From a virus, in IMG/VR virus record IMGVR_UViG_3300023172_002166, positions 1-27,528 of that record: a stretch of 27,528 bases of DNA, one strand, 5' to 3'. Of the stretch, positions 8,620 to 26,104 are shown piece after piece. The translations under genes and the position numbers were made by a program. The number at the start of each line of letters is the position of its first letter. Within the stretch, counting starts at the first letter, position 1. Under the pieces are notes generated by a model. It saw nothing but the letters and a program-made list of their open reading frames with translations. It did not search any database and was not told the DNA's origin.

Positions 8620-8624
8620 GCAAT

Positions 8625-8632
8625 TATTTATT
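8625..8632 (-). promoter_or_regulatory. T4-type late box AATAAATA, five nt before a start codon
   Basis: The minus strand reads AATAAATA (8632-8625), then five nt, then ATG 8619. It fits the NATAAATA form used by marine T4-like phages. With the last A at -6, transcription starts on the A of the ATG. Confidence 0.6.
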
Positions 8633-8647
8633 TTAGCGATTTTACCT

Positions 8648-8655
8648 TATAAATA
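8648..8655 (+). promoter_or_regulatory. T4-type late box TATAAATA, five nt before a start codon
   Basis: A perfect TATAAATA is followed by five nt and the ATG at 8661, so the predicted first base is the A of the ATG. It stands back to back with the minus-strand box at 8625-8632 in one 41-nt gap, forming a divergent late promoter pair. Confidence 0.7.
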
Positions 8656-8660
8656 ATTAT

Positions 8661-10808: not shown

Positions 10809-11610
10809 CTCTATGATCCTTTTGTCTTGTATCTACATTATCGGAACTGTATTCTCCTTTGAGATCATCCACTATATCATTGACATAGCGTCCTTGAAAA
10901 GGAATCTGAAAAGGTTGGTCTGTAGTTTTTGTATATGCGGCAACAATGCTAACATTCTGTGCTTTGCCGTCTCTGTTGTGTAAGTTGTCATACACTTGTT
11001 CTAATTTGCTAATAGGATTACGTGGCTTCTTCTGTTCATAAAATGCCCAACTGTCCATACTAGTTTTACAGTCTGCATAATGACCTGTGTTTTGTGCCAG
11101 CCACATAAACTGCCACTTGTAACCATTTGCGGCTACGATATCTCTGAACAGTTGTGGATGATAACTATAGAAACAATGATTAAACCATGGAGCAAAAGGC
11201 AATACACAAATAATAGTGCCACCTACTTTACATAAGTTGTGCATGTTTTCAAATACAGTACGTTGGTCAAAAATGTGTTCACCTGTGCCATTGTTTGTTA
11301 CATAATCAAATTGTGTTGTATAGTTGTACTTGTCTTTAAGTATAAAGTTAAGATCCATTGCAATACTGCGTAATTCAGTATTAATGTCTATGGCAAGATA
11401 ATCTGAAAAGCCTAAGTCCTCAAAGTACTGCCATACAAACTCTGTGGGTTTTCGTAAGTTTTTACCACTTACTTTTGCACAATGATCAATCCACTTGTCG
11501 CTGTATCTAAATCTTTGATTACCCCATTCTACCACAGTTGCTCCAGGCTTAAAACAACCTTTACTAGATAGAGTTGCAGTCGCTAACTGCATGATGTTAT
11601 TGAATGCCAT
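10795..11610 (-). CDS. Class I SAM-dependent methyltransferase-like protein
   Basis: The 271-aa protein has a first strand VVEWGNQRF (26-34) in the motif I position, YLAIDINTE (71-79) as motif II, and a methyltransferase-type C-terminal half with GTGEHIF, FENMHNLCKVGGTIICVLPF and HPQLFRDIVAANGYK. The glycine-rich loop is weak, but the post-I and motif III/IV order fits a class I fold. It follows the 2OG oxygenase gene by one nt. The target is unknown; the setting favours a sugar or lipid-linked intermediate. Confidence 0.65.
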   Translation of the reverse strand: MAFNNIMQLATATLSSKGCFKPGATVVEWGNQRFRYSDKWIDHCAKVSGKNLRKPTEFVWQYFEDLGFSDYLAIDINTELRSIAMDLNFILKDKYNYTTQFDYVTNNGTGEHIFDQRTVFENMHNLCKVGGTIICVLPFAPWFNHCFYSYHPQLFRDIVAANGYKWQFMWLAQNTGHYADCKTSMDSWAFYEQKKPRNPISKLEQVYDNLHNRDGKAQNVSIVAAYTKTTDQPFQIPFQGRYVNDIVDDLKGEYSSDNVDTRQKDHRGANY

Positions 11611-11611
11611 A

Positions 11612-12388
11612 TTATACTTTCGTTTTAATTTCTTTTACTTTCCACATACGACCGTTGCCGTTGAATTCGCCAATTATGTTAATACTTCTTCTTCGTAGTC
11701 TGGGTTGTATTCTAGGTGTTACACTATGCACACTACCTTTAACATTTAAAAACATACAAAAATTGTTTGCTTGATAAGGTACTTCACGCTGAGGTTGATG
11801 TATATCATCTGCAACTTGTCTGCCAAGTGTTTTGTTTACTTCTGTAATTTCCTTGTGTACACTATGAACAGTGAAGTTACCACCTAATGAATCATCTTCA
11901 GGTAACCTCATATATAACAGCCCTGCATATATTTCAACAGGATTGTCTATGTGAGGTGTCCTAGTAGTGCCCGTTTGATCAACGGGTTCGTGTACAACAA
12001 ACTGACAGTCTGCTACATAACTGCCCGAGTTATCTACATCACGCGGAGTAACACTTCCTTGTAATAAGTCGTGCAAGAATTGGTCACCGTATGCTTTTGC
12101 AATGTGAGGACCAAATAATTCTATACAAGAATTAAAATATTCTTTACTTGTATGATATGCAAAAAAGTCTTGCCAAATTGCAGGTGGTTGTTGCTGTTGG
12201 CATTCTTTCATCTTATAACGATATGTTACACCGTTGTCATGTGGACTTGTACTACAAACAAGTTCCATAGGAAATGTTTCACATAATTCTTTATATCTTT
12301 TTTCAGGAAGTGCGCCTTCTACACAAACATAAGGGTAAGGGTCAGTTTCTACTTGTTTTACGTTTTGTAATACGCTTAGTTCATGCAT
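11612..12388 (-). CDS. 2-oxoglutarate/Fe(II)-dependent oxygenase
   Basis: The 258-aa protein has TPHIDNPVEIYAGLLYM with H146 and D148 as the HxD iron ligands, GGNFTVH after the core strand, and GSVHSVTPR with distal H221 followed by RRRSINIIG supplying an Arg for 2-oxoglutarate. This is the double-stranded beta-helix oxygenase layout, which hydroxylates proteins, sugars or small molecules. The ATG lies in the end of the upstream capsule-type gene (8-nt overlap). In this island it probably oxidises a glycan or its precursor, but this is inference. Confidence 0.8.
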   Translation of the reverse strand: MHELSVLQNVKQVETDPYPYVCVEGALPEKRYKELCETFPMELVCSTSPHDNGVTYRYKMKECQQQQPPAIWQDFFAYHTSKEYFNSCIELFGPHIAKAYGDQFLHDLLQGSVTPRDVDNSGSYVADCQFVVHEPVDQTGTTRTPHIDNPVEIYAGLLYMRLPEDDSLGGNFTVHSVHKEITEVNKTLGRQVADDIHQPQREVPYQANNFCMFLNVKGSVHSVTPRIQPRLRRRSINIIGEFNGNGRMWKVKEIKTKV

Positions 12389-13229
12389 CTGTTTTTCTTT
12401 CTTTTTCTAAATATCTCCAAGCACTTCCACTTAACAGCTCGTGTGTTTCGAATTGATGGTTACATAAATTAAACAACCATGGCATTCTGTCAAATTCTTT
12501 AAGTTTCTCAATGTCCATTATATTATTACTAATAGGATATGCCGCACATTGTTCGCTACATATAATAGGTATCCCTTGTATAGCGGCTTGTATTGCTACA
12601 CTACTGTGATAAGCAATCACACAATGTGCTCTTGATAATTCTTGTTCTAAAGGAAGTTGCGTCGGGTCAACCGGAGTACGTCCAATCTCTTTGCCTTTTT
12701 CATCTAAGATAACTTCACCAGGCTTACCCCTTACAATTATCTGTCTATTTGTTAAAGGTCTAATAGTTTCTAAAACTTTATTAGTCCATTCATGACTTCC
12801 AAACACATAACTTACTGCATCTGTAGGCGGCAAAATTAGAATTGTTTGTCCATCTCTGCGCCAAGGCTTAAGCTCAAATGTTCTATCAAATATTTTGTTA
12901 AACTTTGTAGAATCTGTATCTGTAATTTTGTTACAGTTGAACGCATCTGCTGTTACACGCATCCACTCGCTTGATTTATTGTAGCCAGCCTTAAAATACG
13001 CATGATCCATGTAGTAAAATTTATGTTTACCTGCAATTAGGTATTTTAGTAAATCACCACCGCCACGTATGATGCCTGCTGTAATTACTCTCGAAGTATC
13101 GCTAGGAATACGTTGATTCCTTATCCACCAATCTATGGGCCAAATTCTGCCTTGAGCACCTTTGCTCATATTATGGACAATACGTTCCTGTGTATTTGAT
13201 TTATTCTTAGGTAAGAATGAAACTATCAT
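12381..13229 (-). CDS. Capsule-polysaccharide-type transferase-like protein (copy 1)
   Basis: The 282-aa product has ILILPPTDAV (130-139), QIIVRGKPGE, then LPLEQELSRAHCVIAYHSSVAIQAAIQGIP (the YHSS-to-GIP core at 207-221) and a long C-terminus. An Arg-Lys-Pro strand followed by a Ser-rich S..AIxAxxxGIP motif is the nucleotide-sugar lobe seen in capsular polysaccharide export or transferase (KpsS/Kdo-transferase-like) GT-B proteins. Two further genes here (13207, 15500) share this core. It overlaps its upstream paralog by 23 nt, with AAGGA about a dozen bases before the ATG. Confidence 0.6.
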   Translation of the reverse strand: MIVSFLPKNKSNTQERIVHNMSKGAQGRIWPIDWWIRNQRIPSDTSRVITAGIIRGGGDLLKYLIAGKHKFYYMDHAYFKAGYNKSSEWMRVTADAFNCNKITDTDSTKFNKIFDRTFELKPWRRDGQTILILPPTDAVSYVFGSHEWTNKVLETIRPLTNRQIIVRGKPGEVILDEKGKEIGRTPVDPTQLPLEQELSRAHCVIAYHSSVAIQAAIQGIPIICSEQCAAYPISNNIMDIEKLKEFDRMPWLFNLCNHQFETHELLSGSAWRYLEKERKTDA

Positions 13230-14013
13230 TGATGTTATGTATTCCTTGACGTATTTCTTTTTCAGTAAATTGATAATAACTTAATGTATTTAACCATTTT
13301 GTACGATCGGGTCTAATAGGAGTTTCTATTTTACTAAGGTCCCACAGAGCTATAGGCGAGGCTGGTCCTTGCTCGTGAGTGAATACAGGTATGCCTAAAC
13401 ATGCGGCTTCGACTGCCGACATGCTAACTGATGTTACAACTGCATGTGCATTACTAGCATCTTCTGCAAAAGGTACTCTAGCCGCGGCTGGCCCACTAGT
13501 GCCACGTGCTCTAGGCTTGTGTCTTATTTTAATAGGTCTATCCGTGTAACGTTTTAGTGTTGCTACTGTTTGTTCAGTCCATCCAGGTTGTCCTATGAAT
13601 CGTTCCATAGTAGGACTACTAGGGCACACCAAAATATGATCACCACGAGTTTGCCAATCATGTACTTCTACTCCTAATTGTTTAAATCTATCATTGGGAT
13701 AATCATTTACCCAAGTAACATGTGTTGCATTAGGTACAATACGCCAGTAAAAATCCATATTTGGATTGACTGCTTCTTTTAGTCCATTCCAACGACCCCA
13801 ATAAGGCATGTCAGTAAAGTACCACTTGAGCCCTAGTCTAATATGTTCTTTAACTAAGTGATAATTTTTGCCTACAAATCCCCAAAAGAAACTGGGTCCA
13901 GTTTCGTCCCAAGAATAATCTAGTATTTTTCTAAACCCATAACACTCATGTAAAGGGTTCATAACACGATAGGCTTTGCTGTCTTCTTTATGTCCCGGAC
14001 AATATAAGTTCAC
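13207..14013 (-). CDS. Capsule-polysaccharide-type transferase-like protein (copy 2)
   Basis: The 268-aa product shares the fold markers of its downstream neighbour: DHILVCPSS (125-133), IKIRHKPR (161-168) and SVSMSAVEAACLGIPV (195-210), then GPASPIALWDLSKIE matching the copy-1 region after the core. The N-terminal half is unlike copy 1, as expected for an acceptor-binding lobe. The start is GTG 14013, overlapping the carbamoyltransferase TGA (GTGA) with AAAGG upstream. It probably transfers an activated sugar or polyol phosphate. Confidence 0.6.
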   Translation of the reverse strand: MNLYCPGHKEDSKAYRVMNPLHECYGFRKILDYSWDETGPSFFWGFVGKNYHLVKEHIRLGLKWYFTDMPYWGRWNGLKEAVNPNMDFYWRIVPNATHVTWVNDYPNDRFKQLGVEVHDWQTRGDHILVCPSSPTMERFIGQPGWTEQTVATLKRYTDRPIKIRHKPRARGTSGPAAARVPFAEDASNAHAVVTSVSMSAVEAACLGIPVFTHEQGPASPIALWDLSKIETPIRPDRTKWLNTLSYYQFTEKEIRQGIHNINDSFILT

Positions 14014-15485
14014 GAGAAAACCTTTACTCCATATTTGTTTTCAAATCTATCTGCGTCAGCACGAGTATCTACCATGGGCTCTCCCCTAATGTTTAAACTT
14101 GTGTTCAATAACATAGGACAACCTGTTTCTGCGTACCATGTCTCTAACAATTTTCTAAAGCCTGGACTATCGTTCTTGCTAACTGTTTGTACACGGCTAG
14201 TTCCGTCTACGTGTACAATAGCAGGAAAGTCTTCGGGCTTTTTACATGTAGCAACTACTTGCATGTAGGGACTATCTTCCCAAGCCATAGGCATATCAAA
14301 GTAATCGTGTACATGTTCAGCAAGTATGGCAGGAGCGAATGGTCTGAATAGTTGTCGCTTTTTAATCTTGTTAACAGCATCCTTTATTTCTATACCGCGG
14401 GGGTCTGCTAATAGACTGCGATGTCCTAATGCTCTAGGACCAAACTCTGCTCTGCCGCTTGCTACACCTGCAATCTTATGTTCTTTAAGATAATTTACAA
14501 GTTCTTTTACAGGGTACTCACCTGGTATGTCAGTACCCAAATAAGGGTGTTGCCAATTTAACTTAGTGCCTTGTAGTATAGCGGCGGCTCCTAGACTACT
14601 ACCAGCATCACCTGGATTGGGCATAATCCAAATGTCTTCAAAGTATTTGCCAATGTTCCTGTTTGCTACACAATTTAGTGCTACTCCGCCCATAAACACA
14701 ACACTAGATTCGCCTGTTAGGTCACGAGCCTTACGGAATACAACATCTAACAGTTCTTCCGTTAGTACTTGTACACCTGCGGCAATATCAGTGTCTTTAG
14801 AGTCTTTTAAGTAGTCTTTTTCAATGCCCAAGTGCATATTTTTGCTAAATTTAAGTCTCCGAGGATCACTTATTAGGTCACTCTTGATAGTACTACTAAG
14901 TTTGCCATCACCAAATGCACTCATGCCCATTAGGATATATTCTTCATCTAGTGGCTTTAGACCTACTCGTTGTGTAAACGCAGAGTACATTAGTCCAATA
15001 CTATGGGGATACTTGTTTGACCAAAGTTTTTCGTATTCTACTTCTCCATCAAAGTCTTCTACAGCATGCCATATACTCATAGTATCCCACTCGCCTATAG
15101 CATCTACCACAACAACTGCGGCACTTTCGAATGGACTAGTTGCAAAGCCAGCGGCGGCATGTGATTCGTGATGATCGGCATAGTAAACCGGAATATCTGA
15201 CAGTCCTGTAAAGTAACGTAAGTTTGTTTTTACTGTGGGCCATTGTAATGCATCGTCCCATTGTCCTGCAAATGCTTGTCTAAATTTTTTATTCCAGGGA
15301 TTTTCGTAATAGATTATTTTGTCAGGCTTGCCATACTGAAATGCTTCTTCAAATATCTGTTTGTTGATCCAGTTGTCGTGCTTGTGCTTACTGAAACGTT
15401 CAGTATGTCCTGCAAATAGTATTTCTTTTTCGTTGATTAGCGTTACGCCTGCATCGTGGAAACCGTAACTTACACCTAGTATCAT
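14010..15485 (-). CDS. NodU/CmcH-type carbamoyltransferase
   Basis: The 491-aa product has ADHHESHAA (103-111) with the catalytic His residues, VVVDAIGEWDT (125-135), MGGVALNCVAN (265-275), and a C-terminal domain with FGPRALGHRSLLADPR (348-363) and LNTSLNIRGEPMV (460-472). Family members use carbamoyl phosphate and ATP, via a carbamoyl-adenylate, to O-carbamoylate sugars, antibiotics or, in some phages, modified nucleosides. It is shorter than many bacterial members (about 550-600 aa) but both domains are complete. It heads the minus-strand run down to 9526, faces a plus-strand gene across 14 nt, and has a late box about 60 nt upstream. Confidence 0.9.
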   Translation of the reverse strand: MILGVSYGFHDAGVTLINEKEILFAGHTERFSKHKHDNWINKQIFEEAFQYGKPDKIIYYENPWNKKFRQAFAGQWDDALQWPTVKTNLRYFTGLSDIPVYYADHHESHAAAGFATSPFESAAVVVVDAIGEWDTMSIWHAVEDFDGEVEYEKLWSNKYPHSIGLMYSAFTQRVGLKPLDEEYILMGMSAFGDGKLSSTIKSDLISDPRRLKFSKNMHLGIEKDYLKDSKDTDIAAGVQVLTEELLDVVFRKARDLTGESSVVFMGGVALNCVANRNIGKYFEDIWIMPNPGDAGSSLGAAAILQGTKLNWQHPYLGTDIPGEYPVKELVNYLKEHKIAGVASGRAEFGPRALGHRSLLADPRGIEIKDAVNKIKKRQLFRPFAPAILAEHVHDYFDMPMAWEDSPYMQVVATCKKPEDFPAIVHVDGTSRVQTVSKNDSPGFRKLLETWYAETGCPMLLNTSLNIRGEPMVDTRADADRFENKYGVKVFS

Positions 15486-15493
15486 ATTAAATA
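15486..15493 (+). promoter_or_regulatory. Late-like box ATTAAATA, six nt before a start codon
   Basis: ATTAAATA keeps the TAAATA core and lies in the 14-nt divergent gap; six nt separate it from ATG 15500. The predicted first base is 15499, one base before the ATG. The match to the consensus is weaker than at 8648, so it rests partly on sharing the spacing of the other two plus-strand genes. Confidence 0.4.
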
Positions 15494-15499
15494 TGTTTT

Positions 15500-16369
15500 A
15501 TGAAAATTAGCTTTTGGCACAACAATGTTGCACTTGCTGGTCAAGATATTTATAAGGCATTTGAGAACACTGTAGCAAAAACAGACCAGATAGTACACGA
15601 AGATATGTCAGCAGATGTTGCTGTAATATGGAGTGTGTTATGGCGTGGGCGTATGCAAGGTAACCAAGCAGTATACGATCATTTTCGTAGCCAAGGCAAA
15701 CCTGTTGTAATTATAGAAGTGGGTGTGTTAAAGCGCAACGAGTCATGGCGCATTAGTGTTAACCACATAGACAACACAGGTTACTATGGTCATTTAGATC
15801 ATCCTATAATAGAAGGCAGACATGAACGTTTTGACTTTGTGCCTCGTAAGTTTTTAGGTACAGGATCTAAGATTGTTATTTGCTGTCAGAACGAAGCAAG
15901 TCAGTTATGGCGTCATATGCCAGACACCAGCACATGGTTAGATCAAGTCGTACAACGTATAAAAATATTTCACCCCACTAAAGAGATCATTGTTAGACCA
16001 CATCCAAGATATCCTGTCGCACAAAGTGTTCACAATAGATACCAAGTCGAACAACCAAATAGACAGGGTGATAAAGATGATACAGATTTTTTAGATACTT
16101 TAGATGATGTTTACTACGTAGTAAGTCCCACCGGAGGATCGGCAATAGAAGCCATTATTGCAGGAGTACCTGCTATTGTTTCTAAAGAAAGTCTAGCAAT
16201 GCCTGTTGCTAGAACAGACTACGCAACTCCTCTAGTACCTAATAAACAGGATCGCAAACAGTGGATTAAAAAGTTACGTAATACAGAATGGTTCTTAGAT
16301 GAGATTCAAGAAGGCACACCTTGGCGCAGACTTAGGCCGTTTGTGCTAAATCAAATAAATGCCCGCTGA
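15500..16369 (+). CDS. Capsule-polysaccharide-type transferase-like protein (copy 3)
   Basis: The 289-aa product has KIVICCQNEAS, EIIVRPHPRYP (162-172) and VVSPTGGSAIEAIIAGVPAI (207-226), the same Arg-His/Lys-Pro and S..AIEA..GVP layout as the genes at 12381 and 13207. The RPHPR strand is the most classical of the three. It is encoded on the opposite strand to its paralogs. There is no Shine-Dalgarno, and the late-like box is six nt before the ATG. Its 3' end overlaps the convergent methyltransferase by 38 nt. A sugar or Kdo-type transferase for a surface polymer is likely. Confidence 0.6.
   Translation: MKISFWHNNVALAGQDIYKAFENTVAKTDQIVHEDMSADVAVIWSVLWRGRMQGNQAVYDHFRSQGKPVVIIEVGVLKRNESWRISVNHIDNTGYYGHLDHPIIEGRHERFDFVPRKFLGTGSKIVICCQNEASQLWRHMPDTSTWLDQVVQRIKIFHPTKEIIVRPHPRYPVAQSVHNRYQVEQPNRQGDKDDTDFLDTLDDVYYVVSPTGGSAIEAIIAGVPAIVSKESLAMPVARTDYATPLVPNKQDRKQWIKKLRNTEWFLDEIQEGTPWRRLRPFVLNQINAR
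15547..15554 (-). promoter_or_regulatory. T4-type late box TATAAATA inside the opposite-strand gene
   Basis: The minus strand reads TATAAATA exactly at 15554-15547, within the coding part of the plus-strand gene at 15500. The predicted start is near 15541, a leader of about 56 nt before the carbamoyltransferase ATG, close to the 54 nt seen at the 582-589 promoter. It would restart the minus-strand run beyond the inverted gene. Confidence 0.55.
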
Positions 16370-17087
16370 TCCAGCGTAGTAATAAATGAGGTTGATTAGT
16401 TACGTGGTTGAATCTATCTATACTTTCCTCAAAACTTTTAGGTAACAATTTCTTATCACGAAGATCATGCCATGTAGTTGTCATAGGATCCATCGGCTTA
16501 ACTTTACTTTTGTAGACTACTGCATGTAACCAAGGGTCATCTTTGGCTTTGTAGTACAAACCATCTTTACAATCAAAGCCAGCACACGCCATCATGAACA
16601 CCAAGTTTATAATGTTAAAATTATAAAAGTGTCCTGGTAAATGATGGATGTGTGTCCTATTATATTCAATGTTGTGCAGTTGTGGTAATATTACACACAA
16701 CATACCACCAGCGTTCATTTGTTCATTCCAAACTCTTAACGTGTCATAGGGATTTTGTACATATCCTAAACTATCATGACTCCATATCAGATCAACCTTT
16801 GTAGGAAGGAAGGGAGCCTTTGTAAAATCGTTTTCAACAACTTTTAAATTTTTTGGTAGGTTATATTTTATACTAGGTTTCAAATCAACAGCGAAACATT
16901 TGTAGTTATGTGGGATAGGTGGGTCGTCTCTACTTGCGCACTCTGCCCACCACTTTATGTCTAAGCCTGCACCACAACCAACATCTGCTACACTACGAAT
17001 ACTGTCCATTAAGTCATCGTGTTTATACAGTGCTTCTAGTGTAAACAAACTTTGCTGGTGACTTTCTTCTGGTGTTAGTTGTCTCAT
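16332..17087 (-). CDS. Class I SAM-dependent methyltransferase
   Basis: I start the gene at ATG 17087, which overlaps the uvsY TGA as ATGA and has GGAAG upstream; an in-frame ATG at 17180 would lie 97 nt inside uvsY. The 251-aa product has VADVGCGAGLD (33-43) as motif I, CFAVDLK as motif II, and VDLIWSHDSLGYVQNP as motif IV, then GGMLCVILPQ. This is a clear SAM methyltransferase of the type 11 style. It is the last gene of the run that contains uvsX and uvsY and ends overlapping a plus-strand sugar transferase. Substrate unknown. Confidence 0.8.
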   Translation of the reverse strand: MRQLTPEESHQQSLFTLEALYKHDDLMDSIRSVADVGCGAGLDIKWWAECASRDDPPIPHNYKCFAVDLKPSIKYNLPKNLKVVENDFTKAPFLPTKVDLIWSHDSLGYVQNPYDTLRVWNEQMNAGGMLCVILPQLHNIEYNRTHIHHLPGHFYNFNIINLVFMMACAGFDCKDGLYYKAKDDPWLHAVVYKSKVKPMDPMTTTWHDLRDKKLLPKSFEESIDRFNHVTNQPHLLLRWISGHLFDLAQTA

Positions 17088-17536
17088 ACGCTTACATCTT
17101 CCATACCTGCTGTTCGCAGTCTTGTAATGTGACCTAGTTGCCATTGTTTGGCTTCCAGGCCTTTCATAATACCTAACCATTTATTACGAAGTAGCGCAAC
17201 TTCATTAATTAGCGTTTCAAAGTCTACTACTTCGTCCTCACCATCAACATACTTCTCAGCATCTCTACTGGTCAACGCACGTTGATAGCCTTCTAGATAT
17301 TTCTTAAACCATTTACGTCTAATGCGTCGTAGTTCAATGTTAAGATAGTTTAAGACTGCTTCTATCTCTTGTAACTGATTAAATCTATGTTCAGTTACAC
17401 CAGGCAAGTTAGTAAGGGACTTCTCTACGTTGCCCCATATCTTAACTTCCTGTTTGGCTTCGTCTAACTCATTGTTGTAGTGTGCAATGAAGTCAGGCAA
17501 AAAAGCCAAGTCTTGAACTACTTTGTTATACCACAT
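17084..17536 (-). CDS. uvsY: UvsY-like recombination mediator
   Basis: UvsY loads the UvsX recombinase onto gp32-covered single-stranded DNA in T4. This 150-aa product (T4 UvsY is 137 aa) matches the marine T4-like form as I remember it: LPDFIAHYNNEL, LPGVTEHRFNQLQEIEAVL, SRDAEKYVDGEDEVVDFETL and a closing LRTAGMED. It is mostly helical with basic patches (ELRRIRRKWFKKYL). The ATG overlaps the upstream TAA by one base (TAATG). uvsX lies nearby on the same strand and gp32 further upstream, completing the recombination trio. Confidence 0.9.
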   Translation of the reverse strand: MWYNKVVQDLAFLPDFIAHYNNELDEAKQEVKIWGNVEKSLTNLPGVTEHRFNQLQEIEAVLNYLNIELRRIRRKWFKKYLEGYQRALTSRDAEKYVDGEDEVVDFETLINEVALLRNKWLGIMKGLEAKQWQLGHITRLRTAGMEDVSV

Positions 17537-17775
17537 TAGTCGTCAAATTCTAGTTCGTCCATGTCGTCATCGCCGTCCTCTTCATCGAGGTAATCTTCAG
17601 CGGCTCTTTTTAGATAAGAATCTGTAGCACAAAACTTTTCGAACTCTGGGTCTGCAATTCCCATGTCTACTAGATTGCCCACTAATTGATCTGCGGCTGT
17701 TTGTCTATCTTTACTGGGTACATACTCTTTCATAATCAAGTATGTTTCTGTTAATACGTCTAATTCAACTGACAT
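17536..17775 (-). CDS. 79-aa acidic protein, candidate gp33 late-transcription coactivator
   Basis: The product has a helical N-terminal part (LTETYLIMKEYVPSKDRQTA) and a strongly acidic tail ending DDMDELEFDD. T4 gp33 is a small coactivator that bridges RNA polymerase and the sliding clamp through an acidic-hydrophobic C-terminal tail, and this tail has that character. In T4, gene 33 sits close to 32 and 59. The assignment is by length, tail and context only. GAGGA precedes the ATG, which abuts the radical SAM stop, and the gene is coupled to uvsY. Late boxes in this window make a gp33 expected in the genome. Confidence 0.5.
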   Translation of the reverse strand: MSVELDVLTETYLIMKEYVPSKDRQTAADQLVGNLVDMGIADPEFEKFCATDSYLKRAAEDYLDEEDGDDDMDELEFDD

Positions 17776-19152
17776 TTAATTTTCCTCACTTAAAAGCGAA
17801 TTTAGTTCTGGATAATAATCGCCAAAGAGCGTTGCTCTTTTTTGATCTTGGGGTTCCAGATATTCCCGTACACTACTTATACCTTCTTTAGAATCCATTA
17901 TATCCAAAATAGGTTCTATTTTGTCCTTAAAGTTTTGATTACTTAGTGACAATAATTTTGTTCTAACATTTTCCTTTACTATACTAGGCAAATTTGTAAC
18001 TGTCAACTCCGCTGGATTAGACAATGCACTAAATGTAACTGGCATTCCTAGTTGCTCGCCTAATTCAAACACTTCGTTTGCGTACATTACATTTATATTA
18101 GTTACTGTGGCATAGATATTACATGTGTACTCGGTTTCTGCATATTTGCGTAAATTGGCAGAAACTGTTCTCCAAGTAGATCCAAAACGTTCGTACATAA
18201 AACGTTTGCCCACAGCATCAATACTAAAACTTAGCTCAACTGCTTTAAACTGGTCCCAATAGTCAAACAAAAAATCTGCAAATACTGTGCCATTAGTATT
18301 ATAATGAAGTGTAACTTGTCTACTAAGTCCTGCATCTATAAAGTATTGTAACAGTTTTCTATGTGTTTTGTCTAGTAGTGGTTCACCACCTGCAAATGTA
18401 ATGTATCTTACGTCTTTACTGATGCTGATAATATCAGACCAAAATGTACTAGACTCATTTGCTAACCAGTTGAACTCTACCGTTTCTGCATCTGCATAAC
18501 GACCCCACGTACTACTACATCTAGGACTGCATATTCTACATGCTAGGTTACACTTGTTGCCTAACTTGATATCTAAGTTTAATATCTTGTTTGATGTTAG
18601 GTCATTGTAGTCTATGTCAAACTTGTGTTCTCTAAACACATATTCATCGTTTAACCGTTTACTAACACCACCCTGTTCCTCAACTTGCCAACACTTGTTA
18701 CACGCACCAGGCTTATTTCCTAGTATGAGTTGTTGCTTAAGTTCTTGTTGTTTATCACTTGCAAAGTATTCAACAATACTTGTAGTGTCTTCGCCCAGTT
18801 GCCTATCCCATAAACAACAACGATGTAAACTACTGTCAACGTCTATCTCTAGTCCTGCCCACGGCGTCATACAAATTGTATCTGGTATGTTGTAGTTTGT
18901 GGGATTGTCTATTGATAAATTGCCTCTGTTTATGTTCTCAACAAAGAATGTATCAATGTCTAAATGTACAAATAACTTGCTAAGGTAACGCTCTAAGTGT
19001 TCTTTAGCATCAGAGTCTAAGACATCATCAATAAAAAGAATGCGTTCGTCGTCAGCAAACGCACCTTTATACACTGCCTTTAAATCTTTATAAATTTGAT
19101 TAATAGGCTGTGATAGTAGACTGCTATAATGTATTTTAGTTAGGTAGTTCAT
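17776..19152 (-). CDS. Radical SAM protein with N-terminal twitch/SPASM-like module (1)
   Basis: The 458-aa product has the radical SAM cluster motif CNLACRIC (C201, C205, C208) and GGEP (255-258). Ahead of it lies a cysteine module, C94 in CMTPWAG, C112-C113, and CNKC at 151-154, laid out like a twitch or SPASM auxiliary iron-sulfur domain but N-terminal to the core. About 90 extra residues precede this module, making it the longest of the four in the window. Such enzymes generate a 5'-deoxyadenosyl radical; substrate unknown. It overlaps the second copy by 17 nt and abuts the gp33 candidate. Confidence 0.85.
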   Translation of the reverse strand: MNYLTKIHYSSLLSQPINQIYKDLKAVYKGAFADDERILFIDDVLDSDAKEHLERYLSKLFVHLDIDTFFVENINRGNLSIDNPTNYNIPDTICMTPWAGLEIDVDSSLHRCCLWDRQLGEDTTSIVEYFASDKQQELKQQLILGNKPGACNKCWQVEEQGGVSKRLNDEYVFREHKFDIDYNDLTSNKILNLDIKLGNKCNLACRICSPRCSSTWGRYADAETVEFNWLANESSTFWSDIISISKDVRYITFAGGEPLLDKTHRKLLQYFIDAGLSRQVTLHYNTNGTVFADFLFDYWDQFKAVELSFSIDAVGKRFMYERFGSTWRTVSANLRKYAETEYTCNIYATVTNINVMYANEVFELGEQLGMPVTFSALSNPAELTVTNLPSIVKENVRTKLLSLSNQNFKDKIEPILDIMDSKEGISSVREYLEPQDQKRATLFGDYYPELNSLLSEEN

Positions 19153-20263
19153 TTAACCAGTTAACAAATGACGTTGGAAATATTGTTAAGTCTAGATTTC
19201 GACGTTTTACAAATTCTTTTAAAAATACAACTAGGTTTCTGTGTTGTTCTGTAGTACAGGGTGTCTGTATAGATTGTTTTATAAAGTTATCTTTGTTTTT
19301 GAATTGCACTGACTGTAAATGCTCTTTACTTTTGTCGTCTAATACATTTAATGCAAGATAGTCTGGTTCATTACAAAATACCATGTCTATATCATAGTCA
19401 GCGTATTTGTCCTCAAATTCTTTAAAATTAAAAATGGTTAAGTTTGATAACACACTACTAAATGACACTTTTCCTGCTTGTTGCAAAAGTTCTAAGTTCC
19501 GTGTAAACCTTTCATAACTGTTATTATATCTAGCGAACTCGTAACTGGCGCCCAATCCTTCAGCACTAACCATAAACTCCACATTGTCGCTTACATCCTC
19601 AAGTATACGTTCTAACCTATCAGTATTAACACCTAAGCCAGTATATAACTTAACAGGATTCGTAAAGTTTTTTAGCAACTTAGTTAAACTGTTGTTTAAA
19701 AAAGGTTCGCCTCCGCTTATAGATACAAACTCGTAATTCTTATACTTAACTATTTCATCTATCAGTAAATTATAAGACTCTGTTTGATCTATTTTCTTTT
19801 GCCCTAACTTTAATAAAATTTTATCGTTAACATTTATATCAAACCTAGCCTCATTGAGGTATGCACCGTTGTCGGCTATGTCTCTAAGCCAAGCAGTACT
19901 GTATTGTTTTGTGCAGTACACGCAAGTTAAATTACAATCACTGCCAAGATTAATATGTAATACTTCTGGTTCCGTTGTTATATTAGTATGTGTTACTTTG
20001 TCTGATCCCATAACAAGTCGTCTACTAGACTTTCCTTGACGTTCGGGAGCCCAACACGTACCTTCACAACTAGAAACCTGTATCCCATCCAACATATCCT
20101 TACGCTCTTGTGTTAGTATAGGTATATTAAACAAGTTACCTGGATTGTCTTTTAACCAAGTAGTGTCTATTTTATGCGGATAAGCGGCGCAACACGATTG
20201 TAATTGCCGCCGCTCAGGTTCTATAGTTAGCCACCAAAATTTTTGAGAGCAATAACTACTCAC
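19136..20263 (-). CDS. Radical SAM protein with N-terminal twitch/SPASM-like module (2)
   Basis: The 375-aa product carries CNLTCVYC-type ligands (C110, C114, C117 in DCNLTCVYC) and SGGEP (183-187). The N-terminal module has C5, C24-C25 and C66/C70 (SCEGTCW). A CxxxC spacing here replaces the CxxC of its paralogs. The GTG start at 20263 overlaps the uvsX end by 8 nt with GGAAG upstream, so it is translationally coupled to uvsX. No sign of a leader or membrane segment. The substrate is unknown. Confidence 0.85.
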   Translation of the reverse strand: MSSYCSQKFWWLTIEPERRQLQSCCAAYPHKIDTTWLKDNPGNLFNIPILTQERKDMLDGIQVSSCEGTCWAPERQGKSSRRLVMGSDKVTHTNITTEPEVLHINLGSDCNLTCVYCTKQYSTAWLRDIADNGAYLNEARFDINVNDKILLKLGQKKIDQTESYNLLIDEIVKYKNYEFVSISGGEPFLNNSLTKLLKNFTNPVKLYTGLGVNTDRLERILEDVSDNVEFMVSAEGLGASYEFARYNNSYERFTRNLELLQQAGKVSFSSVLSNLTIFNFKEFEDKYADYDIDMVFCNEPDYLALNVLDDKSKEHLQSVQFKNKDNFIKQSIQTPCTTEQHRNLVVFLKEFVKRRNLDLTIFPTSFVNWLNELPN

Positions 20264-21344
20264 TATCTACAACTTCCGGTTCCTCATTGGTAACTTCTAC
20301 TGTGGGTTCTTCAGTAGATTTTTCAATTTGACCCCACGAATTAATGATAGCATCCAAGCAACCTTCTTCGTTGCGTTCCCACTCTTTACGGTACATTTTA
20401 GTTTCTTCACCTTTAGCATTTACATGCTTGAGCCTATTGCCATCTTTTTGTAACAAGTTCTTTTTCTCAAACAAGTCTACTAATCCACTGTATGGATTCA
20501 TGCCTGTTTCATATGGGATCTTAACTTGTACACCTTCAAATGGTTTTGCATAACGAGTCTTCATTACTTTACAGCCTGCTCTAATACCTTTTACTTCGCT
20601 AATCTTGTTACCGTCCTCATCTTCTTTCAGTTTTAGTTTCTTCATAGCAACTACAATAGATGATGCATAGATAAAGCCTTGACCGCCTGAGATCTTGTCA
20701 TCTGGGTCAAACATATCTTGCGATGCGTATGTGTGGTTAGTACATACCATACCTACGTTGTGACTACCAAACATGTTAACACAGTTACGCACTAGTGCGG
20801 TTAGTGCTTTAGGTTTACGACCCATGTCACCTTTCAAGTCACCTTTGTCAAATTGGTCAACGTCTGTAGGTGTCAGCAACATACCTAAACTGTCAATTAC
20901 AAATAATACTTTAGGTCTGTCATCTTCTGGTGTCGCACGATAGTCTGCCATAAATTGACTAATAGTTTTTGCTACGTCATCAATCATAGCCAAACCTAAA
21001 CGCAACAATTTGTCCTCGCTGGTGTCAACACCTAGTGCATGTAACCATGCTTCATCTAGAGCGTTCTCACTATCTACTAGTACAACATAAATTCCTTGTT
21101 CTTGTGCGGCTTTAATAATGTTACCTGAACAAATGTAACTCTTACCTGCACCTGACTCACCTGCAAATACAGTTACCTTGCCAAGTGGCACACCTTTGTT
21201 AAAGTCTCCACTGATAAGATAGTTTAAGGCATAGTTGCCTGTTGAGATCCAGTCTGTAGGATCGTTAAAGCCAAAACTAATACCATCAATGGCTTTAGTT
21301 AGGCCTTTTCTAAATTTTGATACGTCGAAGGGTTTTTGTGCCAT
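20256..21344 (-). CDS. uvsX: UvsX RecA-like recombinase
   Basis: UvsX catalyses strand exchange in T4 recombination-dependent replication and repair. The 362-aa protein (T4 UvsX 391 aa) has Walker A GESGAGKS (62-69), Walker B VLFVIDS (146-152), the GMVCTNHTYAS segment and KISGGQGFIYASSIVVAMKK typical of the phage form. The C-terminus is acidic. GAGG lies before ATG 21344, one nt after the stop of an upstream radical SAM gene; its end overlaps the next radical SAM gene. It is thus embedded between enzymes that are not part of the T4 core set. Confidence 0.97.
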   Translation of the reverse strand: MAQKPFDVSKFRKGLTKAIDGISFGFNDPTDWISTGNYALNYLISGDFNKGVPLGKVTVFAGESGAGKSYICSGNIIKAAQEQGIYVVLVDSENALDEAWLHALGVDTSEDKLLRLGLAMIDDVAKTISQFMADYRATPEDDRPKVLFVIDSLGMLLTPTDVDQFDKGDLKGDMGRKPKALTALVRNCVNMFGSHNVGMVCTNHTYASQDMFDPDDKISGGQGFIYASSIVVAMKKLKLKEDEDGNKISEVKGIRAGCKVMKTRYAKPFEGVQVKIPYETGMNPYSGLVDLFEKKNLLQKDGNRLKHVNAKGEETKMYRKEWERNEEGCLDAIINSWGQIEKSTEEPTVEVTNEEPEVVDSE

Positions 21345-21345
21345 G

Positions 21346-22500
21346 TTATTGCCTCATAAGTTTATAAATGTCAGGGAATATTTGCTCACTGTCTGTACTT
21401 CTGCGAGCATCTATCCACTGTAAGTATTCAATCGTGCTGTTTGGATTTTTTTCAAACGGCTCTTGTATATATCTCAGTAAATTTCTATAACTGTTTTCTA
21501 ATAGATGTCCTAGGTTTTCGTTTATTCGTTTACGTAGTATAACACTTATTTTTTCTAGTGTCAATTTACTATGATGCCGAATGTTAAGTTCTACCGGCCC
21601 TGTTATTGGTCCTATTACAAATGCATTTGGATGAAAGTTCCAGTCATTTTTAAATTTGTCAATAAAATCAAACATGCTATACGCATTAAGAGCAAAGTAT
21701 AACATATTAAATGTTATCTTATGTCCTAGGTCTTTGATCCAACGTAAGTTACTACAAAAAGTTGCCCAGTCTCCACCATAACGAATATACTCGTACTCTG
21801 CACCCATTGTTTCTGCGCTCACTATCCAGTGTACATTCTTAAATTGGCATGCTAAGTCAAACACTCGAGTATTGGTATGACTAAGGTTAGTGTTGATGCG
21901 CAGACTCACGTCGGGATTGAACTCTAAGAGTAACTCTAAGAGTTCTTCGTTCTCTGTCATTAGCATGGGCTCGCCGCCTGCTAGGTAAACGTTTTTTAAT
22001 GTTTTTATGTTTTCAAAAACATAATTACGCAAGTCTTTATAAGTGTCTTTGCTTGGCTTAGGTTGTGCAATGCCTAGATCCTGTTCCCATTTGCTACTAA
22101 ACTCTGGACCGCAGTATATACAGGTAAAGTTACAAGTGTTTTGCCAACGTATATCAATTTGATGTAGTTCATGTGTGCTATGGTCATATATACCTTTATC
22201 TACATTTTTCAGTTCTTTGATATAGTACTTTCTGTCACTAATAACATTTATACCGGTAGTTTGTCTCTCCAGTTCATAACAGCCTTGACAACTCGCATGT
22301 TCTTTACCAGACTGTTGTGTTTGTTGTACTTCTCGATTTTTATCTCCAGAGACAATGTCACGTATAGACATCGTTTTAAGATCGCCTATGTCCTCGTATG
22401 CTCTTATACAGTTCTTGACTTGTCCATTATGGTTGACCATCATGCCTGTCCAAGGAACAGGGCAACGTACAGGACTTGTAACGTATTCTTTTGCGTCCAT
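21346..22500 (-). CDS. Radical SAM protein with N-terminal twitch/SPASM-like module (3)
   Basis: The 384-aa product has CNFTCIYC (C123, C127, C130) and AGGEP (174-178), with NTNLS and VSAETMGAEYEYIRYGG following as in radical SAM cores. The N-terminal module uses C13 in CPVPWTG, C31, and CQGC at 71-74. The VSAE(G/T)MGA.YE(F/Y).RY region is shared with copy 2, so these two look like the closest paralogs. The ATG shares a base with the SDR stop (TAATG), and its stop precedes uvsX by one nt. Confidence 0.87.
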   Translation of the reverse strand: MDAKEYVTSPVRCPVPWTGMMVNHNGQVKNCIRAYEDIGDLKTMSIRDIVSGDKNREVQQTQQSGKEHASCQGCYELERQTTGINVISDRKYYIKELKNVDKGIYDHSTHELHQIDIRWQNTCNFTCIYCGPEFSSKWEQDLGIAQPKPSKDTYKDLRNYVFENIKTLKNVYLAGGEPMLMTENEELLELLLEFNPDVSLRINTNLSHTNTRVFDLACQFKNVHWIVSAETMGAEYEYIRYGGDWATFCSNLRWIKDLGHKITFNMLYFALNAYSMFDFIDKFKNDWNFHPNAFVIGPITGPVELNIRHHSKLTLEKISVILRKRINENLGHLLENSYRNLLRYIQEPFEKNPNSTIEYLQWIDARRSTDSEQIFPDIYKLMRQ

Positions 22501-23021
22501 TATGCTAGACTAATGTCGTATACTTCCATGCCAACTTGGTCATGGTCCAATATGTTAGTAAGTTTTTCTACCCATGCTGTAACATTAGCACCGCCTTCAC
22601 CTTGTGTGTCAACTTTGCCTGGACGCACAATAACTAACTGAGGCCAAGTCAAGTTGTTACGCAATACTTCTACTGCGGACTCTAGTGTACGTTTTTGATG
22701 ATGATACTTCATCATGTCATAACCTTCTAAACAACTAACAGGCATACCTGCCATCATACTACTGATGTTAATAATCTTTTTACCTGGTTTATCTCGCCAG
22801 TATTCATATACATCAAACAATAGTTCTGTTTGTGCGTAACCTTGTTGTGCGTTGTTAAAGAACCAATCTGCTTGTGACACACGTTCTGCTATACGTTCGT
22901 GATGTTGTATGTTCCATCCATTACGTTTACTGTAATCTAATACTGTGTGTCCTTTTTTAACATAATGCTCTACTATGGCTTTACCAATGCCATTGCTACC
23001 ACCTGTAATTGCTATTTTCAT
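22500..23021 (-). CDS. Short-chain dehydrogenase/reductase
   Basis: The 173-aa product has ITGGSNGIGKA (5-15) as the dinucleotide-binding glycine motif, FNNA (55-58), NISS with S87-S88 and YDMMK (101-105) as catalytic Tyr and Lys. It is shorter than the usual 240-280 aa SDR because the C-terminal substrate region is reduced, yet the catalytic set is intact. AAGGA precedes the ATG, which overlaps the radical SAM TGA (ATGA). It would oxidise or reduce a hydroxyl or keto group using NAD(P), perhaps on the product of its radical SAM neighbours. Confidence 0.82.
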   Translation of the reverse strand: MKIAITGGSNGIGKAIVEHYVKKGHTVLDYSKRNGWNIQHHERIAERVSQADWFFNNAQQGYAQTELLFDVYEYWRDKPGKKIINISSMMAGMPVSCLEGYDMMKYHHQKRTLESAVEVLRNNLTWPQLVIVRPGKVDTQGEGGANVTAWVEKLTNILDHDQVGMEVYDISLA

Positions 23022-23968
23022 AAGTAGTCCTTGTAGTTAATTTTTCGAATAGTGTCTTGATACAGCATCCACTCTGTAAGTTTATGACTGTTATCTTGTT
23101 CAGTGCCTACAACATTCTCAAACAAGTCTTTGTGTGGCTCTGTTAAAAAGTTTGTGTGCCTTACACTTAGTACATCTGGTGATTCTAAAAATGCCCATGA
23201 CCAATTAACTTGTTTACTTTCTACAAATTGTTTAATGTTATTGAAGTCACCAATGTTTAATGCACTTATAGTAGACCATAAGTCTAAATGAAAGTTATCA
23301 TTTTTAAAACGTTTGTAATAGTTAAAAGTCTTTAGCCATGTTTTCCAAGTAACGGGCCAACGCAAGTAATCGTGTACTTTGTCTATGCCGTCCAAGCTCA
23401 TTGTTATTGTAACATCTATGTCACGTTTTAGTAATGGCTTAGGATCTATTTTAAGACTACCGTTAGTGTTTATTCTCACATAACGTATATTAGGTGGCAA
23501 ATACTCTAACAGTTTTTTATAGTTGGGACTCGCCGTGGGCTCACCGCCATTTATGTCTAACTTTACAATACGCTCTTGCGGAAAGTCATAAAACTTGTCT
23601 GTGTTGTCTACTGCTATCGTTTTGTTGGCAATAGCACCAAACTTTGTACTTAAGTGTGGGTTACAATGTTGACAGGCACTATTACAAACATTGTCTAGTA
23701 CCCCGCCTATAATAAGATAATCTCTGCGTATGTTATGTAGTTCTTGATGTTGCTTTTCAGCAAACTGTCTAATACTTTCTTTGCCTTCGTTTTCACTAAC
23801 ACGACAACGTATACATTCATCGGGCCAGTTACCTAAGTTTTGATTCCACTCACTGGCATTCATTTCATTAAATGATTCGAAGCGAGGTGCATTAACCATA
23901 TGCCCGCAACGACTAACTGTGCCGTCTGGGTTCAATCTTGCAAAATGTCTAAATCTAACGCAATTCAT
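23018..23968 (-). CDS. Radical SAM protein with N-terminal twitch/SPASM-like module (4)
   Basis: The smallest of the four at 316 aa. Radical SAM ligands are C95, C99 and C102 (CNSACQHC) and NGGEP is at 140-144. The N-terminal module has C3, C21 and CIRC at 52-55. A clear PDGTVSRCGH segment matches the usual dG.v..C pattern of SPASM-type domains, supporting the module reading. Its ATG overlaps the oxygenase-like gene by 14 nt. Substrate unknown. Confidence 0.85.
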   Translation of the reverse strand: MNCVRFRHFARLNPDGTVSRCGHMVNAPRFESFNEMNASEWNQNLGNWPDECIRCRVSENEGKESIRQFAEKQHQELHNIRRDYLIIGGVLDNVCNSACQHCNPHLSTKFGAIANKTIAVDNTDKFYDFPQERIVKLDINGGEPTASPNYKKLLEYLPPNIRYVRINTNGSLKIDPKPLLKRDIDVTITMSLDGIDKVHDYLRWPVTWKTWLKTFNYYKRFKNDNFHLDLWSTISALNIGDFNNIKQFVESKQVNWSWAFLESPDVLSVRHTNFLTEPHKDLFENVVGTEQDNSHKLTEWMLYQDTIRKINYKDYL

Positions 23969-24473
23969 TTACTGGTTCATTAAAAAATGTTATACTTAAT
24001 ACAATACGTGGCCCATACTCAATCTTTACACCGTGTGGTATTTGACTGTTAAACACGATTGGTTTTGTAAAGAACTTGTGTGTAATTATCTCTGAGTTTG
24101 CTACCCAGCCTTTTAAGTCATATACTTCTCTATCAAACTTGTCTTTTATTTTTGGTCTGTAACTAATATCCTCATCATACCAATAGTTGATGTTACCAAC
24201 ACAATTTTGTATAGGTATGTTAAGTTTAGCAACTACTGGTTTTGCATCTACGTGTAAGTCTAAGTGTCTAGTAAGGTATGTACAAGCAATGTCCCTAGGG
24301 TGTAGTTTAAGATCCTTAACTAGCCAATTCATAAGAGTAGGACAACTACGTAGACAAGTAGCCTCATCTATGTCGTTCCATCCTTCTTCTAATGTGTAGT
24401 GTGCAAGATGCTCCAATATTTCTCGCTGTATATGGATTATACCGTGACACTCTAGCTCTTTAAATGCTTTCAT
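23955..24473 (-). CDS. 2OG-Fe(II) oxygenase-like protein
   Basis: I start at ATG 24473; a TTG at 24494 would add seven residues. The 172-aa product has HLDLHVDAKPVVAKLNIPI, where H74 and D76 form an HxD iron site, and FNSQIPHGVKIEYGPRIVLS with distal H147 and R156 for 2-oxoglutarate. The spacing resembles small aspartyl/asparaginyl-hydroxylase-like enzymes common in marine phages. Its start lies inside the sulfotransferase-like gene. No relation in sequence to the larger oxygenase at 11612 beyond the active-site plan. Confidence 0.65.
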   Translation of the reverse strand: MKAFKELECHGIIHIQREILEHLAHYTLEEGWNDIDEATCLRSCPTLMNWLVKDLKLHPRDIACTYLTRHLDLHVDAKPVVAKLNIPIQNCVGNINYWYDEDISYRPKIKDKFDREVYDLKGWVANSEIITHKFFTKPIVFNSQIPHGVKIEYGPRIVLSITFFNEPVNELR

Positions 24474-25044
24474 GTATGTTTTTACTATGCTCAAAAACTT
24501 CTTTATAGTATTCCTTATAGTTTATACGAAGTACACGCATTAGTTCGTCAAAATGTACTTGTTCATCTATGTAGTTGTCCCATATCATCTTATCACAAGT
24601 CATGTAGAACTGTACTTTGTCAGACACAGGCACATCCATTGTATTATAGGGTCGTTCGTGAAATACTGTTACTTCTCTAATTTTATCTATGCTTTTAAAC
24701 ACAAAACTTGTTTGCTCGTTCATATAACGATGCAAGTTAATTAAAGTGTAAAACTGTGGTGCATAATGTTTATTTAAAAACAAATACTTCACAGCCGTAT
24801 GCATACTAATGCCAGTCTGGTGTACAAACGTACTTACACCACTTTTGAACCTTGCAATAGGTTCTCGCCAGTAAACTGTAATTGCTTGTGCTTGTTGTAT
24901 TTCTTTAAGAGTTGCTAACTTGTATCCTTCTTTATCTATGCTACTTGAGGCATTTTTAAGTATTTTAGCCACAAGTTTGCCTGACGGTAGTTTATATACC
25001 TCAGGTGTGTCGGGAAATAGTTCGTAATCGAGTTGTGTAAACAT
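24460..25044 (-). CDS. Sulfotransferase-like protein
   Basis: The 194-aa product has AKILKNASSSI (26-36), resembling the 5'-phosphosulfate loop (the Lys-Asn-Ala-Ser run), and WREPIARFKSG (59-69), resembling the 3'-phosphate site with R60 and S68. It is short for a sulfotransferase and the C-terminal half is not clearly conserved, so I mark it as like, not confirmed. It is the first gene after the gp32 hairpin and has no visible Shine-Dalgarno before ATG 25044. Together with 9526 it gives the phage two possible PAPS-dependent enzymes. Confidence 0.6.
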   Translation of the reverse strand: MFTQLDYELFPDTPEVYKLPSGKLVAKILKNASSSIDKEGYKLATLKEIQQAQAITVYWREPIARFKSGVSTFVHQTGISMHTAVKYLFLNKHYAPQFYTLINLHRYMNEQTSFVFKSIDKIREVTVFHERPYNTMDVPVSDKVQFYMTCDKMIWDNYIDEQVHFDELMRVLRINYKEYYKEVFEHSKNIHESI

Positions 25045-25111: not shown

Positions 25112-26104
25112 TTACTTTTGTCTATTTCTAATCATAGCCAAAATGTCTTCTGCTCTTTGGCTTGATGGTTTGCTAGCCTCTACAGGAGCAGTTGCTTCTG
25201 CTGGCTCAGCATCTTCTACTACAGGCTCAGGTTGTGCTTCTACTGTAGTTTGTGGTGTAGGAGCAGGCTGTGCCGCAGGAGCACTTTCAGTTGCAGGTTG
25301 TGCGTTAGCAATAACTACACCTGCTGGTCTGAAGTAACTGCCCCACTTGTCTGCATCATATGGTTGCCCATCTACTGATGCTTCAAACATCTCTTTCATA
25401 ACTTTAAGAGCTGTCTCGTCTGGACGCTTGGGCAAGAAGTCTGCTAGATTGAATAAACCATATTGTTCTATAGCCGCTGTTTCTGTTGATGTAAGTGCAG
25501 ACTCTCGCCTTGCCCAATTACTTGTAGAGTAGTCGCTGTAACCGCCTTTGCTAGTCTTAACTACTCTGAAGTCTAATCCTTGATTGTAATCAGTTGGTAA
25601 CTCAACCATGTCTGGGTCAAGCAATGCTGACTTAATCAAGTTAAAGATTTGTGGACTAATTACAAATCTACGAATTGGATTCTCAGGAGTTGTTTCCTCC
25701 TGCATTGGGTTTTCTTTTACAAAGCCTTGGAACAAGTAACTACGCTTCTTCCAGTACTTACGACCCATATCTTCTAAACTTGGATCTTTAAACCAAGTTC
25801 GAACCTCAGCAAGAATAGGACAGGATTCTCCCCACATCTCAACACAGGGTACTTGTACCTGTACAGGTTTGCTGTCTGCTTGTCCTTTAATACCCTGGAA
25901 AGGTAAACGGATCATAGCACGTTCTACCCAGAAAAAATCGTTTTTAGTATCTCCATCAGGAAGGAACCTGATAGTTGCGGTCTCACCTTCTTTTATGTTC
26001 CAGTGTGCAAAGATAGCATTGTCGCCACCTCCACTTGAACTACCACTTGATCGTGTTTCTTGTTGTTGCAGTCTTGCTCTGATATCGGCCAATGATGTTG
26101 CCAT
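25112..26104 (-). CDS. 32: gp32 single-stranded-DNA-binding protein
   Basis: gp32 coats single-stranded DNA and organises replication, recombination and repair in T4-like phages. The 330-aa protein starts MATSLADIRARLQQQ, has the core FAHWNIKEGETATIRFLPDG, VPCVEMWGESCPI, WFKDPSLEDMGRKYWKKRSYLFQGFV and RRFVISPQIFNLI, then a Pro/Ala/Glu-rich linker (about 270-315) and a short RAEDILAMIRNRQK tail. Only two Cys lie in the region where T4 gp32 has a His-Cys3 zinc site, as I recall is usual in the marine forms. AAGGAG stands eight nt before ATG 26104. It has its own promoters and a 3' hairpin. Confidence 0.95.
   Translation of the reverse strand: MATSLADIRARLQQQETRSSGSSSGGGDNAIFAHWNIKEGETATIRFLPDGDTKNDFFWVERAMIRLPFQGIKGQADSKPVQVQVPCVEMWGESCPILAEVRTWFKDPSLEDMGRKYWKKRSYLFQGFVKENPMQEETTPENPIRRFVISPQIFNLIKSALLDPDMVELPTDYNQGLDFRVVKTSKGGYSDYSTSNWARRESALTSTETAAIEQYGLFNLADFLPKRPDETALKVMKEMFEASVDGQPYDADKWGSYFRPAGVVIANAQPATESAPAAQPAPTPQTTVEAQPEPVVEDAEPAEATAPVEASKPSSQRAEDILAMIRNRQK

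Follow-up and report, generated by a model that had tools for sequence, protein, structure and literature searches.

A conserved cassette with two N-terminal-twitch radical SAM genes between gp32 and uvsX in viral contigs

Radical S-adenosylmethionine (SAM) enzymes perform chemistry that few other enzymes can. In the curated family NF033640 (N_Twi_rSAM, 'twitch domain-containing radical SAM protein'), which has no assigned function, an auxiliary cysteine domain is followed by the radical SAM core, the reverse of the order in BtrN (2-deoxy-scyllo-inosamine dehydrogenase, a twitch radical SAM enzyme) and in the SPASM maturases (SkfB, SuiB and anSME) of ribosomally synthesized and post-translationally modified peptides (RiPPs). 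Large T4-like phages with an A-type Fe–S carrier and numerous radical SAM genes in variable cassettes have also been described: the T4-like marine phage TARA_ERS488813_N000010 has 12 radical SAM genes (2017; PMC5332604), radical SAM cassettes occur in the host-recognition islands of pelagimyophages (2020; PMC7029224), and the available parts of these two papers neither name a family, a domain order or a conserved set of genes nor place the genes at gp32–uvsX–uvsY. Here, we analyze a 27,528-base IMG/VR virus record, IMGVR_UViG_3300023172_002166 (referred to, at its full length, as the window), in which four radical SAM genes, R1 to R4, surround the recombinase gene uvsX. Two of them, R4 and R3, form a conserved cassette between gp32 and uvsX with a sulfotransferase-like gene (sulfT), a short-chain dehydrogenase/reductase gene (SDR) and, optionally, a 2-oxoglutarate (2OG)-oxygenase-like gene (o179); the cassette seems to travel as cargo and not to belong to the repair machinery. 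Both the family and phages with multiple radical SAM genes were already known; in the open-access literature we found no description of a conserved gp32–uvsX cassette, sulfT–R4–SDR–R3 included, and no paper that reports phage enzymes of the N-terminal-twitch radical SAM type by that name.

All four radical SAM genes are intact open frames on the minus strand with no internal stops, and their products contain the CxxxCxxC and GGEP motifs of the radical SAM superfamily, as the original prediction had recognized. Scores against Pfam Radical_SAM (PF04055) are 31.2, 39.0, 52.6 and 34.2 bits for R1 to R4, each above the gathering score of 29.5, and NF033640 is the best model for every one of them, with E-values (2e-86 to 5e-34) that place the match far beyond chance. 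R1 (290.4 bits) and R3 (232.8 bits) exceed the curated NF033640 cut-off of 170 bits and are formal members of the family; R2 (150.9 bits) and R4 (118.1 bits) score below it and are therefore treated as relatives that share the architecture, although all 37 R4 orthologues scanned also match the model. R2 and R4 form clades of their own, and an operon with sulfotransferase-like and SDR genes lies outside the family definition.

In each protein, a putative auxiliary-cluster site of four cysteines precedes the three core cysteines (R1: C94, C112/C113, C151 and C154, core C201-C205-C208; R2: C5, C24/C25, C66 and C70, core C110-C114-C117; R3: C13, C31, C71 and C74, core C123-C127-C130; R4: C3, C21, C52 and C55, core C95-C99-C102), and all seven positions are 100% conserved among orthologues (n = 20, 76, 110 and 92 for R1 to R4, respectively). 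For R3, which has a SPASM (PF13186) match at residues 13–75, ahead of the core, profile alignment shows the domain permutation directly: residues 10–85 align to the C-terminal auxiliary domains of BtrN (167–247, with all four cluster cysteines included) and SkfB (332–374), and the core aligns to the N-terminal cores of both. The conserved cysteines and the permutation thus confirm the claim that an auxiliary module lies ahead of the core in all four enzymes. The core fold and auxiliary domain are also homologous to those of the SPASM RiPP maturases, from which the phage enzymes differ in their swapped domain order, single auxiliary-cluster site and lack of an adjoining precursor gene. Confident structure models of R3 (pLDDT 89, pTM 0.88) and R4 (pLDDT 88, pTM 0.84) match SuiB, SkfB, BlsE, MoaA, anSME, NifB, DesII and viperin at tied Z-scores, so the fold does not name a substrate. 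A tblastn search of the public phage collection with R3 returned no match. The radical SAM proteins of KVP40-type Vibrio phages (phrog_14086) match the twitch and core of R1 (residues ~94–406, 23–26% identity), but their genes have different neighbors, namely QueC-like and nicotinamide salvage genes.

Gene order was compared across 257 loci from five viral-contig scans, merged to 214; most contigs were fetched using radical SAM queries, and the counts therefore show co-occurrence, not frequency. On the minus strand, the window is transcribed in the order gp32, sulfT, o179, R4, SDR, R3, uvsX, R2, R1, a 79-aa gene, uvsY and a methyltransferase gene. In ~80 fetched contigs, sulfT, R4, SDR and R3 are found, nearly always as a complete set, between gp32 and uvsX, with o179 optional, and the interval is empty in 34. 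The linked pairs sulfT–R4 and SDR–R3 can exchange places (SDR–R3 comes before sulfT–R4 in seven contigs), and the genes are tightly packed, with median gaps of −4 nt for SDR–R3 and for R4–SDR, −19 nt for sulfT–R4 and +1 nt for R3–uvsX (overall −19 to +6 nt). The slot between uvsX and uvsY is variable: it holds R2 then R1 in the window, R1 then R2 in L100 and L107, and one or neither elsewhere. The original prediction correctly placed uvsX between copies 2 and 3 (R3 and uvsX are separated by the single nucleotide 21345, and uvsX and R2 overlap by 8 nt) and an SDR between copies 3 and 4, and the gene order is not unique to one assembly, recurring exactly in two more (L085 and L086). Its four-enzyme set coupled to uvsX, in contrast, must be redrawn as R4 and R3 with two or three non-radical-SAM genes; R1 and R2 are not always present, and their order differs between contigs. 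The block is also wider than it had seen, reaching 25044 with the sulfotransferase-like and 2OG-oxygenase-like genes and flanked by uvsY and gp32.

Selection on UvsX similarity only gave 69 complete gp32–uvsX intervals, of which the module occupied only 13, while 30 were empty and 26 held other genes. Moreover, where cargo precedes uvsX, the gene often has a promoter-like sequence to itself. Where the module (R3 or R4) lies upstream of uvsX, a sigma-70-like promoter was found in 51% of 45 unique contigs, compared with 15% in shuffled sequences and 0% in the next 300 bases upstream; where other genes lie upstream, it was found in 57% of 46 unique contigs (shuffles 13%), often 17–38 nt from the start codon. 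No such enrichment was seen where gp32 is directly adjacent to uvsX (4%, against 2% in shuffles). The window site, TTGACA-17-TATACT, recurs at the same position in L093, L100, L089, L017 and L014, and in R3 contigs the site is mostly ~190–213 nt upstream of uvsX, inside the R3 coding sequence, where conservation of the protein may contribute to its recurrence. These patterns suggest that uvsX expression is kept independent of the cargo. Slots that are often empty or otherwise filled, together with the promoter-like sites, point to cargo at a hotspot rather than to the coupling with uvsX that had been proposed.

The four radical SAM enzymes have separate ancestry within one family and did not arise by local duplication. 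In a 128-row tree, R1, R2, R3 and R4 each form one clade (support 99–100), surrounded by further copies that come from these phages or from bacteria, and a single joint R1–R4 clade is rejected (p-AU 0.0002, approximately unbiased (AU) test, 47 rows). Neither of the outcomes originally contemplated, local duplication or unrelated clades, describes this result: the clades are separate, yet they are clades of one family. Across 20 contigs, the distances of R3, R4 and SDR correlate more strongly with each other (r = 0.77–0.84) than with those of uvsX (r = 0.51–0.58), which fits a unit travelling partly independently of uvsX; the relatedness of the contigs makes every one of these correlations positive.

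The partner genes differ in how well they are recognized by existing models. SDR matches PF00106, and its TGxxxGIG, NNAQ and YxxxK motifs are conserved in 25 orthologues, placing it in the SDR family. The motifs KNGSSSL and RxPxxRxxSG of sulfT, which resemble a 3'-phosphoadenosine-5'-phosphosulfate (PAPS) site, are conserved in 28 orthologues, four of which match Pfam Sulfotransfer_2 (PF03567) weakly (best E 0.0015); the window sulfT has no PF03567 match. In o179, the HxD...H motif and downstream arginine are present, with H81, H154 and R163 invariant and D83 at least 90% conserved among 18 orthologues, one of which matches Asp_Arg_Hydrox (E 0.007). Profile searches of the PDB with the sulfotransferase-like and 2OG-like proteins gave no meaningful match. 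A second SDR gene, beside the DnaB-side radical SAM gene of L264, was considered as a further instance of the SDR–R3 pair and rejected, because the SDR profile does not match it.

Among all fetched contigs, the other occupants of the gp32–uvsX interval, named by eye, include a different radical SAM family and amidinotransferase, SGNH-type and glycosyltransferase-like proteins. A non-twitch radical SAM gene (385 aa) fills the slot in L123, L135, L141 and L143, and an amidinotransferase gene fills it in four other contigs. An uncharacterised protein with the motif LNFYLHRxE or similar and no Pfam match occupies it in L193, L199, L244 and L253, and recurs among cargo genes elsewhere (L262 6275–7429; L266 12737–13822). 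The features of the window are collected in Table 1. Its UvsX is 66% identical to those of the jumbo phages Atu_ph07, CBB and GAP32, and the 79-aa acidic protein adjoins uvsY in many contigs, with or without radical SAM genes.

Table 1. Features of the gp32–uvsX–uvsY region of the window.
Feature	Position	Strand	Evidence
gp32-type single-strand DNA-binding protein; borders the hotspot on the left	25112..26104	-	phrog_1192 E 1.5e-67
sulfT, sulfotransferase-like; obligate R4 partner	24460..25044	-	PAPS-site-like motifs
o179, 2OG-Fe(II)-oxygenase-like; optional member	23955..24494	-	HxD...H...R motif
R4, N-terminal-twitch radical SAM enzyme, 316 aa	23018..23968	-	NF033640, PF04055
SDR; R3 partner	22500..23021	-	PF00106 E 7e-10
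R3, N-terminal-twitch radical SAM enzyme, 384 aa	21346..22500	-	NF033640, SPASM PF13186
Promoter-like site TTGACA-17-TATACT upstream of uvsX, within the 3' part of R3	21536..21564	-	consensus match only, 11/12
uvsX recombinase	20256..21344	-	phrog_97 E 2.6e-67
R2, N-terminal-twitch radical SAM enzyme, 375 aa, GTG start; uvsX–uvsY slot	19136..20263	-	NF033640, PF04055
R1, N-terminal-twitch radical SAM enzyme, 458 aa; uvsX–uvsY slot	17776..19152	-	NF033640, PF04055
Small acidic protein, 79 aa; usual uvsY neighbor	17536..17775	-	gene-order comparison
uvsY-like recombination mediator; borders the second slot on the right	17084..17536	-	phrog_231 E 6e-15

These phages carry an expanded complement of the family, well beyond this region. 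The 289-kb record behind L093 contains 14 NF033640-family matches, 13 of them above the cut-off and seven in one tandem block, and the 357-kb record behind L120 contains 16, several of them weak. Two phage records share the tandem block with three phage-like contigs that were binned into bacterial metagenome-assembled genomes (MAGs), and the neighbors of the block encode SGNH-type hydrolases, an aminotransferase, an amidinotransferase and a carbamoyltransferase, several of them identified by eye only. The block comprises five to seven different N-twitch genes, whose order is conserved among several large phages (L262, G001:88000-107500, 7401–16659; L266 6203–12753; L276–L278). A single cluster copy used as the query gave no match in the first genome-contig scan, and an alignment of eight cluster sequences was too diverse to serve as a query. 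Of 11 records with N-twitch genes, 8 also have an A-type Fe–S carrier gene, which the two records that lack N-twitch genes do not have. Single N-twitch genes also lie between primase and DnaB helicase genes and between gp46- and gp47-like genes (L264 5568–6686, L272 4234–7856 and L269 5378–6667), and insertion at junctions of replication genes seems to be a general pattern. The family is found in 40 of 144 Bdellovibrionota genomes, with up to 11 copies each, and the clusters there (including L316 and L321) pair N-twitch genes with other radical SAM types and with QueC-like PP-loop, glycosyltransferase-like and SGNH-like genes. One bacterial protein of 1611 aa (L295 6116–10951, G017:C40) joins an N-twitch radical SAM domain to a long C-terminal part that has no Pfam match.

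Our preferred explanation, to which we give an even chance, is that a cargo module occupies an insertion hotspot, that it acts on a sugar or glycan and that its link to uvsX is one of place and timing, not function. Given the SDR, 2OG-type oxygenase and sulfotransferase-like partners, the simplest pathway would be redox tailoring of a sugar followed by sulfation, a proposal that we regard as evenly balanced. Each radical SAM enzyme would use its core 4Fe–4S cluster and SAM to abstract a hydrogen atom via a 5'-deoxyadenosyl radical, and the predicted, fully cysteine-ligated N-terminal auxiliary cluster would accept the electron, as has been proposed for BtrN-type dehydrogenases. A common sugar or glycan would be oxidized by R3/R4, reduced or epimerized by SDR, optionally hydroxylated, and sulfated, and the product would decorate the phage or host surface. 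In support, BtrN, to whose auxiliary domain that of R3 aligns, is an aminocyclitol dehydrogenase, and the best fold matches include two enzymes that act on sugars, BlsE and DesII, at scores tied with those of peptide enzymes. Slot and copy neighbors in phages and Bdellovibrionota, several recognized by eye only, include SGNH hydrolases, amidinotransferases, a class III aminotransferase, a carbamoyltransferase and likely glycosyltransferases; beyond the methyltransferase gene, the window itself runs on into a long series of NodU-type carbamoyltransferase, sulfotransferase, FkbM-like methyltransferase and glycosyltransferase-like genes. Several points weigh against this explanation: the sugar substrate is one that we infer, the sulfotransferase and 2OG identities are mainly motif-based, the fold matches are superfamily-level, with peptide maturases (SkfB and SuiB), MoaA and viperin matching equally, the promoter-like site in R3 may only follow from the conservation of the coding sequence around it, and many N-twitch genes adjoin replication genes (primase–DnaB and gp46/47), where nucleotide chemistry would fit too.

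Modification of a phage structural protein, or of a peptide encoded elsewhere, in the manner of the SPASM-type RiPP maturases is unlikely. The closest solved relatives in both sequence and fold do include SkfB and SuiB, and N-twitch clusters follow tail-fibre-like genes in MAG-borne phage contigs, but the genes of the module are packed so closely, with overlaps or almost no spacing, that a precursor gene would not fit between them; gap analysis found none inside the module, which rules out a RiPP with an adjacent precursor, and a sulfotransferase, SDR and oxygenase would be unusual company for a RiPP. The multi-step pathway first envisaged stands as a probable multi-enzyme pathway, with its peptide option disfavored. 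We think it slightly less likely still that the enzymes alter nucleotides entering phage DNA. Such hypermodification would explain the replication and recombination neighbors, including the single genes at the primase/DnaB and gp46/gp47 junctions of related phages; the fold resembles QueE, MoaA and viperin, and the KVP40 homologue lies near a QueC-like and a nicotinamide-salvage gene. However, glycan-type genes occupy the same slots, Bdellovibrionota chromosomes carry the family with no phage replication genes adjoining, and to our knowledge neither sulfotransferases nor SDRs are partners in DNA modification. The close spacing around uvsX (a 1-nt gap on one side and an 8-nt overlap on the other) and the conserved position beside it would suit a pathway functionally tied to recombination and co-expressed with uvsX, yet this is improbable: most of the close UvsX relatives in which the order gp32–uvsX–uvsY is intact lack the module, promoter-like sites would insulate uvsX from the cargo, and other N-twitch copies sit far from it. 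That R1 to R4 arose by local tandem duplication of a single gene and carry no significance for a pathway would account for their shared family and can be given almost no weight, as the tree (four strongly supported clades) and the AU test reject it and every orthologue keeps all seven cysteines.

The cassette is carried by many large aquatic bacterial viruses, probably for decorating a surface sugar. More tentatively, large aquatic T4-like phages and some Bdellovibrionota could share an unrecognised biosynthetic system of many diverged N-twitch enzymes, with sulfT–R4–SDR–R3 as a transferable sub-pathway that would make a new sulfated, radical-tailored modification during infection. R1 also matches the AhbD model weakly, and most of the 261 'ahbD' genes that a Baltic Sea study (PMC9301287) assigned to viruses may be N-twitch radical SAM genes; more generally, virome studies that list 'ahbD' or 'moaA' among viral auxiliary metabolic genes may in some cases have recorded members of the N_Twi family. 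The locus shows large phages loading cargo beside core repair genes while uvsX, as its promoter-like sites suggest, stays expressed, and a conserved cassette with fixed partners provides a concrete, expressible unit for finding the function of the N_Twi family.

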